From contig JAPOUT010000120.1 in the NCBI GenBank assembly GCA_026708545.1, forward strand, positions 1-49,160: a stretch of 49,160 nucleotides of DNA, written 5' to 3'. A program made the position numbers and the translations under genes. The notes under the pieces are model-generated. The model did no database searches and was not told the origin of the DNA. It worked only from the letters and a program-made list of their open reading frames with translations. Shown here piece after piece: positions 7,999 to 41,074 of the stretch (positions are counted from its first letter, which is position 1; each line of letters begins with the position of its first letter). Source of the stretch: Hyphomicrobiales bacterium. Lineage in GTDB: Bacteria; Pseudomonadota; Alphaproteobacteria; JAPOUT01.

Positions 7999-9453
7999 TT
8001 AAGCCCAAATAGGTACATAACCGGAACGAGGATGCTCCGGGTCTAGGGATTTGATCCATTCCTCATTGAGGGCATCCCCGATAACTCCGGAGGCGAAGGC
8101 GCTGCTACTGCCGTTACCCGACAACCCAAGCCGGTCTCTCAACGTAGCGTTCGTCATCCTTCCATCCTCCAAATACGTGATAACCGCATGCTGGTAGCAG
8201 GCGCGCACACGCTCCGGCTTTGACATCTGCCTGAAATCCCTGGGACCATGGAGAATGACCTGTGTTGAGTCGTTGCCGACCCTGAATTCCGGTGGCGGAG
8301 ATTTATAGGATTCTTTTATTACTATATCCACTCCGCTTCCCCGCTCTTCACAAAAATCCATTCGACGCATCAAATCAGCCAGTTTCTGATTACGAGAGCG
8401 CGGAGATGAATCTATCATCCGGTCGGGTGCGATAAGCGATTCCCCGGGATTGTCGATTTGCAGCCTGTTGCGAAACACATAAATTTGCGGACCCGCACCG
8501 GTGATATGAAAATCCTGATGGACGAGGGCATTCACCAGCAATTCGCGGGTGGACCGCTTGGGAAAATCGGGTATGTCCTCCCTGTACGAGTTACCGACCT
8601 CTTCTCTCACATGCACGTGATCATAAATCCGGTCCAGGATATTATCGAAATCCAGGACATATCCCCTTTCTCCATCTCTTTTATCCTTCACGTCACTGGT
8701 CTTGCCATCACCTCTATAAACCGCCAAGCGTATCCCCTTGCGTGCCATGGATACACCAAAATTCGATAAATTTCTGGCAAACAGAATTGCGCCAAGATTG
8801 GTAATGTCCCATTTGCCTGCGTCGTTTTTTCGGATAATTCCTTCCGCCTCCAGTCTTTCGCAAATTTCCTCCGAGTTTGTCGGCTTGGGTTTTTTCATGC
8901 GTTCAAAGTATTTTTCCCAATCAAGCAAATCAAGCACTAGGTCCTGCTCCAAATGTTCCTTGGCCGCGGCTTCTTCCCAATTGAATTTCCCGAGCCGGGA
9001 AATCAGTTTTTCGTGCACCTGCCGATGTTGCCGTAAATTTGAAACAGAGTTGCCTATACGAACATAATTTGTGTTGCGAAAAGCCGTCGGCACGCCAACC
9101 GCCGCCGACACTTCCAAGAGAACCACCCTGCCTTGCGGGTGCGTTATTTCCTTGAATTCAAACGAGGGGCAGGGATCCAACATCCTTGCTAAATAGATAG
9201 GCAAATCCTGATTGCCGTGTTTTACGGTTTCATGATTAAAAGGGGTGCCCACTATCTGGCGGGATTTATCATCAACGCCCCAAATGACATATCCGCTGTC
9301 CCGACCAACCAAAGCCGCACCATTCGAAAGAGCCGAGCACAACTTACCTATTGCCTCAGAGTCTGAAACCCCGACCTTAAATTCAAGCCATTCTGATTCA
9401 TTATTTCTCCGAAGTTCATCAACAAGATCGATATCGCGCGTGTCGGTTGTCAT
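7999..9453 (-). CDS. Schlafen AlbA_2-HATPase ATP-binding regulator-like protein
   Basis: 484 residues. The N terminus has the Schlafen/AlbA_2 signature (SEWLEFKVG, then GG/GRDSGYVIWGVDD around 50-60). Residues about 290-400 resemble the divergent HATPase_c_4 module (RSTRELLVNALVHQDF, DNPGE, EERGSGVDIV). The C terminus (about 430-475) looks like a winged helix (TNATLRDRLGLSG). Such proteins are annotated as ATP-binding transcriptional regulators, and related ones occur in defence islands. Here it stands alone between gene-poor flanks, more AT-rich than the neighbouring core genes, which suggests horizontal acquisition. Role is not inferable beyond the domains. Confidence 0.8.
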   Translation of the reverse strand: MTTDTRDIDLVDELRRNNESEWLEFKVGVSDSEAIGKLCSALSNGAALVGRDSGYVIWGVDDKSRQIVGTPFNHETVKHGNQDLPIYLARMLDPCPSFEFKEITHPQGRVVLLEVSAAVGVPTAFRNTNYVRIGNSVSNLRQHRQVHEKLISRLGKFNWEEAAAKEHLEQDLVLDLLDWEKYFERMKKPKPTNSEEICERLEAEGIIRKNDAGKWDITNLGAILFARNLSNFGVSMARKGIRLAVYRGDGKTSDVKDKRDGERGYVLDFDNILDRIYDHVHVREEVGNSYREDIPDFPKRSTRELLVNALVHQDFHITGAGPQIYVFRNRLQIDNPGESLIAPDRMIDSSPRSRNQKLADLMRRMDFCEERGSGVDIVIKESYKSPPPEFRVGNDSTQVILHGPRDFRQMSKPERVRACYQHAVITYLEDGRMTNATLRDRLGLSGNGSSSAFASGVIGDALNEEWIKSLDPEHPRSGYVPIWA

Positions 9454-36954: not shown

Positions 36955-37656
36955 CTAAATAGGATTTTTGTCGTCCGGACGATAGCGCGGGGCGCCCCAG
37001 TCCTTGTCGGGGTTTTTCAGCATCAGGTCAATGCAGACGGGTAGGAACGGCTCCATAATCGTTACGCCGCGAAGCAGTGCATTGCGATTTTTCCCGCTGT
37101 CATGCGTGGCGCTCCCGTGTATCAATTGGTTGCGCAGAACACAGAGGCGGTTGAAAACCGTGGAGACCAAAACCTTTGGCATCCTTTTTTCCTTTTGCAG
37201 ATTATTGAAGGTTCGCGCTTTGGTGAATGTACGTTTGTGCGCCCTACACTCCTCGCGCCATTTGTCCTGCACGACGCGGGCGGTTTTGGATTTCCAAAAA
37301 AATTCAAAGAGATATTCGTCTTCCACCAGCAAGCGACCCGCTTCAAAAATTTCTCCTTCCCAAAAAAATCCGTGGATACGGTCCTTGTCCAGAGATACGA
37401 GAACATTAAGATATTCCAGTATTTCTTTGAAGGTCTTTGATGCATCCTGGCCGCCGGCAACCGCATCAGGTTCCCTGGCATAAAGCGAATTGAATCCTAT
37501 CCAAAGAAAGATGAAGCGCGCGTCCAAATCATCGGACAGCTGTTCCGCCCGCCTCCCCCAGCTAATGGCACGATGGAGACGCAAGCGCAGAGACTGCAAT
37601 TCTTCGGGAATTTCGCGCTTCTTCTTATTGAGTCTTTCATAATCCTGTATGTCCAT
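36955..37656 (-). CDS. HEPN-domain protein, first paralogue
   Basis: 233 residues. Near the C terminus R-N-Q-L-I-H (Arg175-His180) is the R-x4-H active-site motif of HEPN ribonucleases, within a helical FNRLCVLRNQLIHGSAT context. The N-terminal part (LRLHRAISWGRRAEQ...FLWIGFNSLYAR) is shared with the protein at 40391-41074. HEPN proteins with this motif usually cut RNA as toxins or defence effectors. No MNT nucleotidyltransferase antitoxin is adjacent. More AT-rich than the bioY operon it converges with. Confidence 0.7.
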   Translation of the reverse strand: MDIQDYERLNKKKREIPEELQSLRLRLHRAISWGRRAEQLSDDLDARFIFLWIGFNSLYAREPDAVAGGQDASKTFKEILEYLNVLVSLDKDRIHGFFWEGEIFEAGRLLVEDEYLFEFFWKSKTARVVQDKWREECRAHKRTFTKARTFNNLQKEKRMPKVLVSTVFNRLCVLRNQLIHGSATHDSGKNRNALLRGVTIMEPFLPVCIDLMLKNPDKDWGAPRYRPDDKNPI

Positions 37657-37803
37657 AAATCACCTAATCAACACTAAAAAACAAAGCGGGAATTCTTGCC
37701 GTTCACAAATTAAAAAAGATAGCCACCTAAGTAACTATACGACACATGCGGGGCTTTGGGCTGATTCGGGGGTGATTCGCAATTTTTGTTGTATTTTTGC
37801 CGG

Positions 37804-37918
37804 TCACCCAGTAGGGTGATTCGGTCGTCTACGGACCAACCGACCCAGAGGTGGGGTATGAAGAGGAATCCTCTCTAAACTGGCACGAGGCTGATTCGTC
37901 GGAATGTGAATCGCCTCG
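37804..37918 (+). repeat. cluster of four small inverted repeats with GATTCG copies
   Basis: Hairpins TCACCC-AGTA-GGGTGA (37804-37819), TCGGT/ACCGA (37821-37843), AGAGGA/TCCTCT (37862-37874), and CGAGGC-t-GATTC/GAATC-GCCTCG (37886-37918, 11 pairs with one bulge). TGATTCG recurs four times between about 37750 and 37900. It may be the 5' part of the structured RNA that follows, or a separate control region. Confidence 0.5.
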
Positions 37919-37965
37919 AAACCCCGCTTGTAAACTGAATATGGAAGAGATTGGTTACTTGTTGA

Positions 37966-37994
37966 TTGACGAATGGGAATAAATGATTTAGACT
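37966..37994 (+). promoter_or_regulatory. sigma70-like promoter for the candidate large RNA
   Basis: TTGACG (37966-37971), exactly 17 bases, TAGACT (37989-37994). Start would fall near 38001, about 20 bases before the first closing stem. Confidence 0.45.
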
Positions 37995-38045
37995 TATATA
38001 TAGGTAGGCCCTCACGGATTTCTCGCCCAGCCCCTAGGGAGTTTG

Positions 38046-38063
38046 GACCCCCCTAGGGGGGTC
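38046..38063. repeat. 18-bp perfect GC palindrome
   Basis: GACCCCCCTAGGGGGGTC is fully self-complementary and very GC-rich inside AT-rich DNA. A related shorter copy, CCCCTAGGG, lies at 38031-38039. As RNA it makes an eight- or seven-pair stem with a tiny loop. Confidence 0.85.
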
Positions 38064-38778
38064 GCGCCGGTTGAGAAACCCTACCAGACGAGTTTGGAAC
38101 TCGCTGGCGAGGACCCAATACATCTGTCCCACGGAAATAGGTTTTTGTCAATTCCCTATTTGTAAATTTTTTCCTTTATGCTACAAGTGATTCAGTTACG
38201 ATTGGGTGTTAGCGACCCTATGAGTTGAGGTACCTTTTTCCGACTCTTTTCAATCTCCTCCACAATCGATTTTCTCGCCCACCTTAAACGCGAGACAAGT
38301 TCCGGACCAAATTGGAACAGCAGTGACTTTTTGCCTTTAGTGTCACATACCTTTTCCACATTCTGGGGAATTTATCCGAAGCGTTGAAGAGTCATGCTCG
38401 CATTCGAGATAAGGTGAATATCCGGACAGCTGTCTTTATTTCGTTATCGATAATCCGAAAGGTAAAACCTTAAGATTAGAATCTCTGTGATATACGAGCC
38501 CGCCAAGCACCTCTGTCGGCGCCATCAACTCGACAAGCAAATTAATTAGAAATTTTCCAAAAAATTTTAATGGGAACTTTCCATATAACTTGCGAATCAT
38601 GTGGGTATAGGATATACATGCGAACGTCTTCTCGTATTAGGCTGAATTGAATGATTCGATAACGAATTCGATAGTTAAGTTGGACTGGTCCTCCATAGAG
38701 GATTAGAGAGAGTCTCTATAAACGGATTCTTTCTGATTGCCTTTCCACGCCAGTTCAGTTTTCTCCTGAAAGGGAGTT

Positions 38779-38820
38779 TGTCAAATGGGGAAGAATGGGA
38801 TAACCCATTTGACACTTTTT
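38779..38820 (+). terminator. intrinsic transcription terminator
   Basis: TGTCAAATGGG (38779-38789) pairs perfectly over 11 bases with CCCATTTGACA (38804-38814), then C and TTTTT, then more pyrimidines. No protein gene lies upstream on this strand for over 1.8 kb, so the transcript it ends must come from the gene-free tract. Confidence 0.8.
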
Positions 38821-38848
38821 CTCTCTAAAAAAACAACAACGAACCATT

Positions 38849-38933
38849 GCGGACGTGGCGGAATGGTAGACGCGCTGTCTTGGAAAGGTAGTGGGCTTGT
38901 TCCGTGAGGGTTCGACTCCCTCCGTCCGCACCA
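38849..38933 (+). tRNA. tRNA with leucine-type body and GGA anticodon
   Basis: 85 bases with encoded CCA. The acceptor stem GCGGACG/CGTCCGC is perfect. The D arm GCG-GAATGGTAGA-CGC is leucine-like. The anticodon stem is CTGTC/GGTAG with two G-U pairs, and the loop TTGGAAA puts GGA at 38882-38884. A long variable arm is present and the T arm GAGGG-TTCGACT-CCCTC is perfect. The discriminator at 38930 is A, as in leucine tRNAs; serine tRNAs have G. GGA would read UCC/UCU serine codons. Identity is therefore ambiguous: a Leu(GAG)-like body with a Ser(GGA)-like anticodon loop. Confidence 0.85.
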
Positions 38934-39011: not shown

Positions 39012-39086
39012 ATGATAACAAAAGCAAAGCAGTTAACAACAGCCGTAAAAAACTTGGAAAACGACCTATGGAAATTAACAAGGTAG
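39012..39086 (+). CDS. possible 24-residue leader peptide
   Basis: ATG with GGAGA five bases upstream opens a 24-codon frame that overlaps the start of the ATPase frame by 19 bases. It is basic (MITKAKQLTTAVKNLENDL...). It may couple translation to the ATPase or be chance. An inverted repeat ACCAAT/ATTGGT (38962-38987) lies just upstream. Confidence 0.3.
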   Translation: MITKAKQLTTAVKNLENDLWKLTR

Positions 39087-40226
39087 TAATATCGGAACTC
39101 ATTAACGCTGCGATGTCTGCAGACTATACTGCCGTGCGGCGCCTTGGTAGAGACATCGCACGACAACTCGCATCCCAAGGTGACCAGGAAGGTGCAAAAT
39201 GTATACAATCTATTTTGCGGAAACGTGGAGTTCCCCTTCAATCCTCCGGATACGCCGAAGCACTTCCACGTGATAGCGCATCACACCTGCCTCTCGTTGA
39301 AGAGGGCCAACCGTTAACCACGCCCGTGATGCTGAACGGCGAGTCTGGCGCGACAATCTCCGAGTTCGTTAATGATGCGAAGCACATTGATCTACTGAGC
39401 AAAAGAGGCGTTGCATCTCAGCTCAGGCTTCTTTGTATGGCCCACCTGGGACTGGCAAAAGCCTCCTTGCAGGGCATGTGGCAACACTCCTTGATCGACC
39501 TTTCTACATTGCACGGCTGGACTCCCTAATCTCATCTCGTCTTGGCGAAACAGCAAAAAATATCAGGAGTATCTTTGATTACGTCCCTTCAAAAGAAGCC
39601 GTTCTCTTCCTTGATGAGATTGACTCAATCGCCAAAGTTAGAGATGATCGACATGAACTTGGCGAGTTGAAACGCGTCGTCAATACAGTGCTTCAAGGTC
39701 TAGATTCACTGACGGACGATGTCATTACCATAGCGGCGACCAATCATCCTCATCTGCTCGATTCTGCGATATGGCGTCGCTTCCCCTACAAGGCGGAAAT
39801 CAATCTTCCCGATGGCGATGTGCGTGAAAGTTTGTGGTTGCATTTTCTTTACCAAGATGATGAAACGCGGCGGAATGAAGCTGCGCTTCTCGCAAAGGTT
39901 TCGGATGGTTTAAATGGGTCCGATATCGAAAACATCGGGTTGGCAGCAAGACGGCGCGCCATCCTCTCTGGCGAGGAATCCTCACTGATTAAAATTTTGT
40001 TGGCGGTCTCGAAGTCAAGTTCAAGCAGTGCACGTCTAATCAGTAGTGATGACCCGAACACACAGGCAAAAAAACGGTGAGCATCTTACTCAGCGAAAAA
40101 GGCGGAATCAGCCAAGCTGAAATTGCTCGAATTGTCGGCGTCAGCCGCCAGATGATAAATAAGTATCTGAAAGAAGCGAGGATGACTGAATCTCCACCCC
40201 CTCCTAAAACTGCTTTTGCACCCTAG
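39068..40226 (+). pseudogene. AAA+ ATPase with C-terminal HTH, frameshifted
   Basis: The N-terminal frame (from ATG 39068) reads to SQLRLL at about 39433 and then leaves register. The ATPase core continues one base back: YGPPGTGKSLLAG (Walker A), AVLFLDEIDSIAK (Walker B), ITIAATNHP (sensor 1), AIWRRF (arginine region). The switch point, a short T run before Walker A, looks like a one-base deletion. The core frame stops at 40078-40080 right after seven A residues. The next frame encodes a helix-turn-helix tail (SQAEIARIVGVSRQMINKYLKEA) to 40226. Coding-like sequence in a further frame runs to 40317. The closest type is stand-alone AAA ATPases of mobile or defence loci. Either decayed or containing one sequencing error plus one programmed shift. 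Confidence 0.7.
40068..40074 (+). promoter_or_regulatory. A_AAA_AAA slippery heptamer before a stop codon
   Basis: In the ATPase frame the codons are GCA AAA AAA CGG TGA. The seven A residues match the classical -1 frameshift site exactly in phase. A -1 slip joins the ATPase to the HTH tail. A possible stimulatory pairing (TCAGC/GCTGA around GGC/GCC) begins about 17 bases downstream. Confidence 0.4.
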
Positions 40227-40390
40227 GAGAAATACCGAGCATGAGCGTGCAAACGACGGCGGGAAGTCAGCCAGCGACGTCATTGAACATCGGTTGCGTG
40301 CAAGCAAGAAGCAATAACTTCAACAAGTCGCTCCCCCATTCCCTTGATGCAGTTGCCTTTTCTAATCTGCCCTAATTTAACCATTACCTC
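40227..40390. other. short region between the ATPase remnant and the second HEPN gene
   Basis: Contains a 44-codon ATG frame (40241-40375) and, in another frame, a coding-like tail ending at 40317. Neither is convincing as an independent gene. Confidence 0.3.
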
Positions 40391-41074
40391 CTACTTTTCT
40401 ATTACGGGATAGAACGGTTTCCCCCAAGATTCATCAGGATTTTCCATCATGAGGTCAATGAAGATGGGAAGCATCCAATCCATTATCTCCGCGCCGGCGC
40501 TCACTTGCTCTCGATTGACACTACCATTCCAAGTAGCACCGCCGTGCATCAACTGATTGCGTAACGTATAAAGATTATCAAAAACTTCCGTTAGAAGCAG
40601 AGCCGTGTTCATTTCTTTTCTGGCACGGTTAAATCTGCGCCCCCTCCTACTCAAACTCTCGTTCCAATCGTCTTTACCCGGTTTGCCGTGAACATGATCC
40701 CAGAAGGGAGTAAAAACAAATTTATTTTTCACCCACTTGGGAGTAGGCGTATCTTTTTGGAAAAACTTCTCCCAAACAGCATCATAAACGCGATTGCTTC
40801 CATCAATGCTCACGAGAGTTTTGAAATAGCTTCTAAACACATTCCTATCTGGAGGACCTGAATCACCTCTGGCAAACTCGGAAGGTATCCGGGTATAGGC
40901 CGCGTTGAACCCAATCCAAAGCAAAAGGAAGCGAACATCTACATCCTTGGTTTCTTTTTCAGCGCGCAATCCCCAACTGATTGCGCGATGAACGCGCAAA
41001 CTCAGGTCATCGGGAAACCCGTCTTGCAGGTCGTGCTGCTTGTCTTTAAGAGTTTTGAAATTCAACTTGTCCAC
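40391..41074 (-). CDS. HEPN-domain protein, second paralogue
   Basis: 227 residues from a GTG at 41074. I chose it because the preceding TAGGGTGGTTT and the next residues align with TAGGTGATTT and the ATG of the first paralogue. Shared blocks are LRVHRAISWGLRAEK, FLLLWIGFNAAYTR, TLRNQLMHGGATWNGS (R-x4-H, Arg172-His177) and FIDLMMENPDESWGKPFY. Middle parts differ, so the two copies diverged long ago. They face the same way and bracket the RNA/tRNA/ATPase segment. Confidence 0.7.
   Translation of the reverse strand: MDKLNFKTLKDKQHDLQDGFPDDLSLRVHRAISWGLRAEKETKDVDVRFLLLWIGFNAAYTRIPSEFARGDSGPPDRNVFRSYFKTLVSIDGSNRVYDAVWEKFFQKDTPTPKWVKNKFVFTPFWDHVHGKPGKDDWNESLSRRGRRFNRARKEMNTALLLTEVFDNLYTLRNQLMHGGATWNGSVNREQVSAGAEIMDWMLPIFIDLMMENPDESWGKPFYPVIEK

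Follow-up and report, generated by a model that had tools for sequence, protein, structure and literature searches.

A structured leader RNA and intrinsic terminator precede a leucine-type tRNA with a serine anticodon in a defence-type island of a Hyphomicrobiales bacterium

The stretch of DNA analysed here (the window, 49,160 nt) belongs to a 2.26-Mb MAG of a Hyphomicrobiales bacterium, an assembly of 139 contigs that is 90.8% complete. The window carries a single tRNA gene, and around it lie metabolic genes and a small defence-type island. Flanked by bioY on one side and a dehydrogenase gene on the other, the island runs in the order HEPN1, structured RNAs, tRNA, IetA and HEPN2, with the following features:

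36955-37656, minus strand: HEPN1 gene (RNQLIH motif), homologues annotated 'HEPN domain-containing protein'
37712-37738, minus strand: terminator-like hairpin of 8 bp including two G-U pairs, then six U (-5.7 kcal/mol; 56 nt before the HEPN1 ATG)
37714-38165, minus strand: second structured RNA
37780-37856, minus strand: match to the post-tRNA tail of a related unit on contig C60 (GACCGGCAAAAATACAACA motif)
38590-38618, plus strand: weak, speculative promoter-like site TTGCGA-17-TATACA (8 of 12 matches, read from the sequence; below scan threshold)
38620-38822, plus strand: structured leader RNA, third copy of a family also present on contigs C60 and C124 (model match 38641-38820)
38642-38665, plus strand: conserved leader motif TGAATTGAATGATTCGATAACGA (score 16.5 against C124, shuffled maximum 16)
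38682-38756, plus strand: long-range helix P1, pairing 38682-38688 with 38750-38756
38763-38776, plus strand: GNRA-capped hairpin P2 (CTCCT-GAAA-GGGAG), in all three copies
38779-38820, plus strand: intrinsic terminator with an 11-bp stem and T-run (-16.2 kcal/mol)
38849-38933, plus strand: tRNA with leucine-type body, anticodon GGA, A73 and CCA
39068-40080, plus strand: IetA-type AAA ATPase gene, split over two reading frames by a frameshift
40391-41059, minus strand: HEPN2, a paralogue of HEPN1 (38% identity)

The IetA gene is frameshifted and IetS, its partner protease, was not seen at the locus, which reads from its sequence as a decayed defence locus; since IetA is broken, the island may simply be decaying. 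That the tRNA sits at a genomic island came from the congener G001, in which HEPN, IetA and the tRNA are missing beside bioY and other genes are found instead, a putative empty site whose other flank in G001 is a contig end. Plasmids of Alphaproteobacteria carry relatives of the HEPN proteins, in the neighbourhood of nuclease, transposase and toxin-antitoxin genes; no relatives were found in viral contigs or phages. Beside HEPN2, positions 40308-40390 are 76% identical to a stretch of locus L014 (the genome's own contig C93) and could be a dispersed repeat.

The 1.1-kb gap between HEPN1 and the tRNA had been taken in a preliminary description for one large ornate non-coding RNA, either GOLLD/ROOL-like or of a new class. 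Our analysis showed that the observation behind this proposal is largely real and its interpretation mostly wrong. The interval 37745-38848 is indeed gene-free: the longest stop-to-stop frame wholly inside it has 82 amino acids, lies on the minus strand and has no usable annotation, and three short ORFs tested in the gap gave no Pfam match. The tRNA does adjoin the gap. Perfect hairpins are denser than in shuffled sequence, the comparison by which the preliminary description had offered to be refuted. Against 200 dinucleotide shuffles, 18 hairpins of at least 5 bp were seen with 7.5 expected (one shuffle reaches 18), and six of at least 6 bp with 1.9 expected (three shuffles reach six). Both the GNRA-capped hairpin and the 11-bp terminator stem (38779-38789 with 38804-38814, then CTTTTT) are present as described. 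The promoter proposed at 37966-37994 is at chance level, the scan of the gap giving two promoter-like sites and the shuffles 2.3. The terminator scan likewise gave one site and 1.9 in shuffles, so that the terminator draws its weight from conservation instead.

Folding statistics, calculated for both strands against 40 shuffles each, divide the gap in two. The segment 37714-38165 has a z-score of -5.67 on the minus strand and -3.1 on the plus strand, and 38620-38822 has -3.5 on the plus strand and -0.9 on the minus strand. The ~430 nt between them (38166-38600) show no significant structure (z -0.6 plus, -2.0 minus), and for seven other stretches of the window folded as controls, five intergenic and two coding, z ranged from -1.3 to +0.8. 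The four-helix domain described at 38022-38111 is structured but was assigned to the wrong strand, as 37995-38140 folds far better on the minus strand (z -3.8) than on the plus strand (z -1.0). With structured blocks on opposite strands, an unstructured stretch between them and a conserved plus-strand unit of only ~180-200 nt, the gap is two smaller structured RNAs pointing apart, not one giant RNA.

Identity with GOLLD or ROOL is not supported. In Rfam 15, searched both at the gathering score and with E allowed up to 5, only the tRNA was significant, and no GOLLD, ROOL or other family matched. Like GOLLD and ROOL (PMC12286853), the locus has a structured non-coding RNA near a tRNA; unlike these RNAs of 600-900 nt, the conserved unit has ~200 nt and sits beside the only tRNA of a small defence-type island rather than in a phage tRNA island. 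A large ornate RNA of ~1.1 kb, to which the hairpin density and the tRNA neighbour would point, is already largely refuted by these results and barely credible. No homologue of the whole 1.2 kb, except for the tRNA, was found in other genomes of the genus and order, in phages or on plasmids. What survives of the proposal is a new structured RNA beside a tRNA, which covaries with two homologues.

These homologues are in the same genome. The first clue was a 35-nt match on contig C60, obtained in a search of the assembly. C60 carries a second GGA-anticodon tRNA behind a terminator, and contig C124 a third tRNA behind a terminator, with the anticodon GAA (Phe). Each belongs to an intergenic unit:

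C60:6680-7277 (L036): ~600 bp, inverted palindromic ends, leader, terminator, tRNA-like gene and conserved tail GTGGCGGGACAGATAATCCTGATAGAAA
C124:1337-1948 (L055), minus strand: ~600 bp, with the same parts and the same conserved tail

The two units are 70% identical over 540 columns, and the C60 unit has a promoter-like TTGACT-17-TAGTCT. In the window, the plus strand matches the unit in the leader end, the terminator and the tRNA (score 49 against a shuffled maximum of 19), with the tRNA contributing a large share of the score. The minus strand matches the C60 tail at 37856-37780 (score 29, shuffled maximum 17.5), so tail and leader are rearranged relative to the C60 and C124 units. An exact 19-mer of the shared motif was found at two Faecalibacterium loci, which we took as chance matches, and at none in viral contigs. 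The end palindrome GGTTACTTAAGTAACC was considered as a genome-wide repeat and rejected, since with up to two mismatches it matches only the C60 unit.

The terminal inverted repeats of the C60 and C124 units, of the kind seen in MITE-like elements, raise the question of whether all three loci are remnants of a small mobile unit in which a captured tRNA-Leu moves along with leader and terminator while the tRNAs drift. The inverted ends, 70% identity and different intergenic places of the two 600-bp units, the rearrangement of tail and leader in the window and the frameshift in IetA fit this explanation. We regard it as unlikely, as only two full copies were found in the genome at BLAST sensitivity, no transposase was seen, and the compensatory changes in leader and tRNA point to selection.

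To what extent the window leader is related to the other two can be judged without the tRNA. A covariance model was trained on the C60 and C124 leaders alone, leaving out the tRNA and the window. Over both strands of the 49-kb window its sole match was 38641-38820 on the plus strand (E 7.4e-4), and in an unfiltered search of 4.3 kb the same segment scored E 6.1e-5 with the next match at 0.78; these E-values come from a shortened calibration. Across 254 kb of other loci, the model found only its two training copies at E <0.8. The terminator block, again without the tRNA, is significant against both C60 and C124 (0 of 300 shuffles). The window leader is strongly diverged, and beyond the terminator block and one 24-nt motif (against C124) its sequence similarity is at noise level.

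Covariation in homologues, a check suggested for the whole of 37745-38820, is present in P1 and the terminator of the leader family. It rests on three sequences only, the copies aligned by hand; in this alignment 27 of 27 terminator cells pair with four two-sided changes. The GNRA-type hairpin pairs in 15 of 15 cells with no two-sided changes. In P1, which was placed by eye and is suboptimal by 0.7-3.5 kcal/mol in single-sequence folds, 19 of 21 cells pair with three two-sided changes. Shifting the partners by one to three columns gave fewer pairs. By inspection, the 5' strand of P1 could pair with the terminator of C60 and that of C124, though not with that of the window, and no antiterminator pairing was found that all three copies share; gating of the tRNA is therefore something that we infer from gene order.

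The window tRNA has a leucine-type cloverleaf with A73 and lacks a leucine anticodon. Its closest host relative is tRNA-Leu(UAA), at 80%. All 17 pairs of the acceptor, anticodon and T stems stand, with seven two-sided changes relative to that tRNA and none broken. The C60 tRNA is nearly intact and its CCA is not encoded; in the C124 tRNA the acceptor stem is damaged, the anticodon is that of Phe and CCA is lacking. Given the damage in C124 and the lack of an encoded CCA in both, charging is improbable for at least one copy. Five ordinary leucine tRNAs (TAA, CAA, TAG, CAG, GAG) are found in the genome. A strict pattern (Leu body, loop TGRAAA) has three matches in this genome and none in a sample of 384 other alphaproteobacterial genomes, and this pattern is narrow enough for looser cousins to escape it. 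The same loop occurs in tRNAs of eight viral contigs, two of which have a Leu-like tRNA with a GGA loop while the rest look interrupted or degenerate; near these two Leu-like tRNAs the leader model gave no credible match (E 0.85). At L065:753 and L066:1534 (IMG/VR contigs), a Leu-like D arm is followed by the anticodon loop TTGGAAA (GGA), neither being called by ARAGORN.

One may ask whether the GGA tRNA is simply the genuine serine tRNA of this lineage, a leucine-like body charged by SerRS that reads UCC/UCU in the ordinary way. No ordinary tRNA-Ser(GGA) was found in the MAG, whose serine tRNAs are TGA, GCT and CGA; however, the MAG is incomplete (90.8%) and many tRNAs are missing from it. 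The body, A73 and D arm are of leucine type and unlike those of the three host serine tRNAs, and two differing copies plus a GAA variant behind terminators are unlike a housekeeping tRNA. We consider this explanation improbable. Reassignment of UCC/UCU to leucine was also rejected: in homologues of two proteins these codons often align with serine and never with leucine, the other residues being Ala, Asn, Gly, Pro or Glu. The host genome thus decodes UCC/UCU as serine.

How, then, may the leader and the tRNA work together? A conserved structured leader and a terminator lie directly before the tRNA gene. The reading that we favour, tentatively and short of calling it probable, is that in a decayed defence-type island an attenuator-type leader of ~200 nt gates a tRNA whose body is of leucine type and whose anticodon is that of serine. 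It is supported by the presence of three homologous copies in the genome, by covariation in leader and terminator, by the kept order of leader, terminator and tRNA, and by the intact tRNA of the window. In C60 and C124 only a few nucleotides separate the T-run from the tRNA, which leaves hardly any room for a separate tRNA promoter, so that read-through of the terminator would be the simplest route to the tRNA. Transcription would start upstream of the leader, and the RNA normally made would be short and stable, ending at the terminator. If the terminator is overridden, the transcript would continue into the tRNA, which could be excised by RNase P together with the machinery for tRNA 3' ends.

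Gene order suggests that the tRNA is part of a longer transcript. A rival reading is a regulatory RNA in which the leader, or a longer read-through RNA, does the work and the tRNA-like part serves processing, stability or binding rather than translation. The degenerate C124 tRNA, the C60 tRNA without CCA and the tail conserved 3' of the tRNA in both units would agree with such a role. It also has a precedent in tRNA-Other of B. cereus, an island-borne pseudo-tRNA that forms part of a larger regulatory RNA (PMC3399842). Both are odd tRNAs at a genomic island; tRNA-Other lies within a longer transcript with structured flanks, and here gene order suggests a longer transcript as well. Unlike our locus, tRNA-Other has a Trp anticodon, belongs to another phylum and has no terminator directly before it, whereas our locus is one of three copies with covariation in the leader, and its Leu-type tRNA with a serine anticodon is intact. 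We find a purely regulatory role possible but rather unlikely, as the window tRNA retains all stems, A73, CCA and seven two-sided changes, which go beyond the needs of a processing signal.

Compared with T-box and similar attenuators, the locus shares a structured leader that ends in an intrinsic terminator before a gene, and differs in that the downstream gene is a tRNA, Rfam gives no T-box match and no conserved antiterminator was found. The leader RNA family is absent from Rfam and is new as an RNA, and its layout resembles a known attenuator leader or a pseudo-tRNA in a larger RNA. The leader-terminator-tRNA anatomy is well supported, and its function is what we infer. Together the three parts make a small unit that can be tested directly.

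Transfer RNAs in which body and anticodon disagree are as a rule either made in the laboratory or harmful mutants. LeuRS and SerRS of E. coli do not rely on the anticodon, so that the window tRNA, if expressed, should bring leucine to UCC/UCU. For the terminator-gated tRNA that we favour, LeuRS, blind to the anticodon, would charge the excised tRNA with leucine, and tRNA-Leu(GGA) would insert it at UCC/UCU serine codons. As leucine at serine codons is harmful under the standard code, such a tRNA must stay rare, and the terminator would keep it so; in a decayed defence-type island it could act as an inducible growth-stopping effector. A chimeric engineered tRNA-Leu-GGA of the same design, a leucine body with a GGA anticodon, is used to have serine codons read as leucine in a Ser/Leu-swapped system (PMC11099018). 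That tRNA is synthetic, while the present one is natural and lies behind a terminator in a standard-code genome.

That a single genome has three such tRNAs, all preceded by related leaders and terminators and one of them intact with compensatory changes, suggests a controlled mistranslating or regulatory tRNA. It is conceivable, though quite doubtful, that the locus is a natural switchable mistranslation effector, in which leader and terminator restrain a leucine tRNA with a serine (or Phe) anticodon until a signal such as phage infection frees it. Such a switch would fill new proteins with wrong leucines, as a natural counterpart of the engineered Ser/Leu-swapped codes, and it is this reading alone that would be categorically new.

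The minus-strand RNA points away from the plus-strand leader and may be the leader of HEPN1. A structured RNA, a terminator-like hairpin and then an RNase-type gene are also the layout of type III toxin-antitoxin systems (ToxIN type), but tandem RNA repeats are missing here, and we rejected such a pair of minus-strand RNA and HEPN1, since HEPN homologues on plasmids and in genomes have no such RNA annotated in front of them. These homologues mostly lie close behind other genes, with no tRNA nearby except for one tRNA-Met in a genome relative. Elsewhere in the window, 7999-9453 on the minus strand encodes a protein of Schlafen AlbA_2 and RecG C-terminal type, possibly a further defence or regulatory gene.
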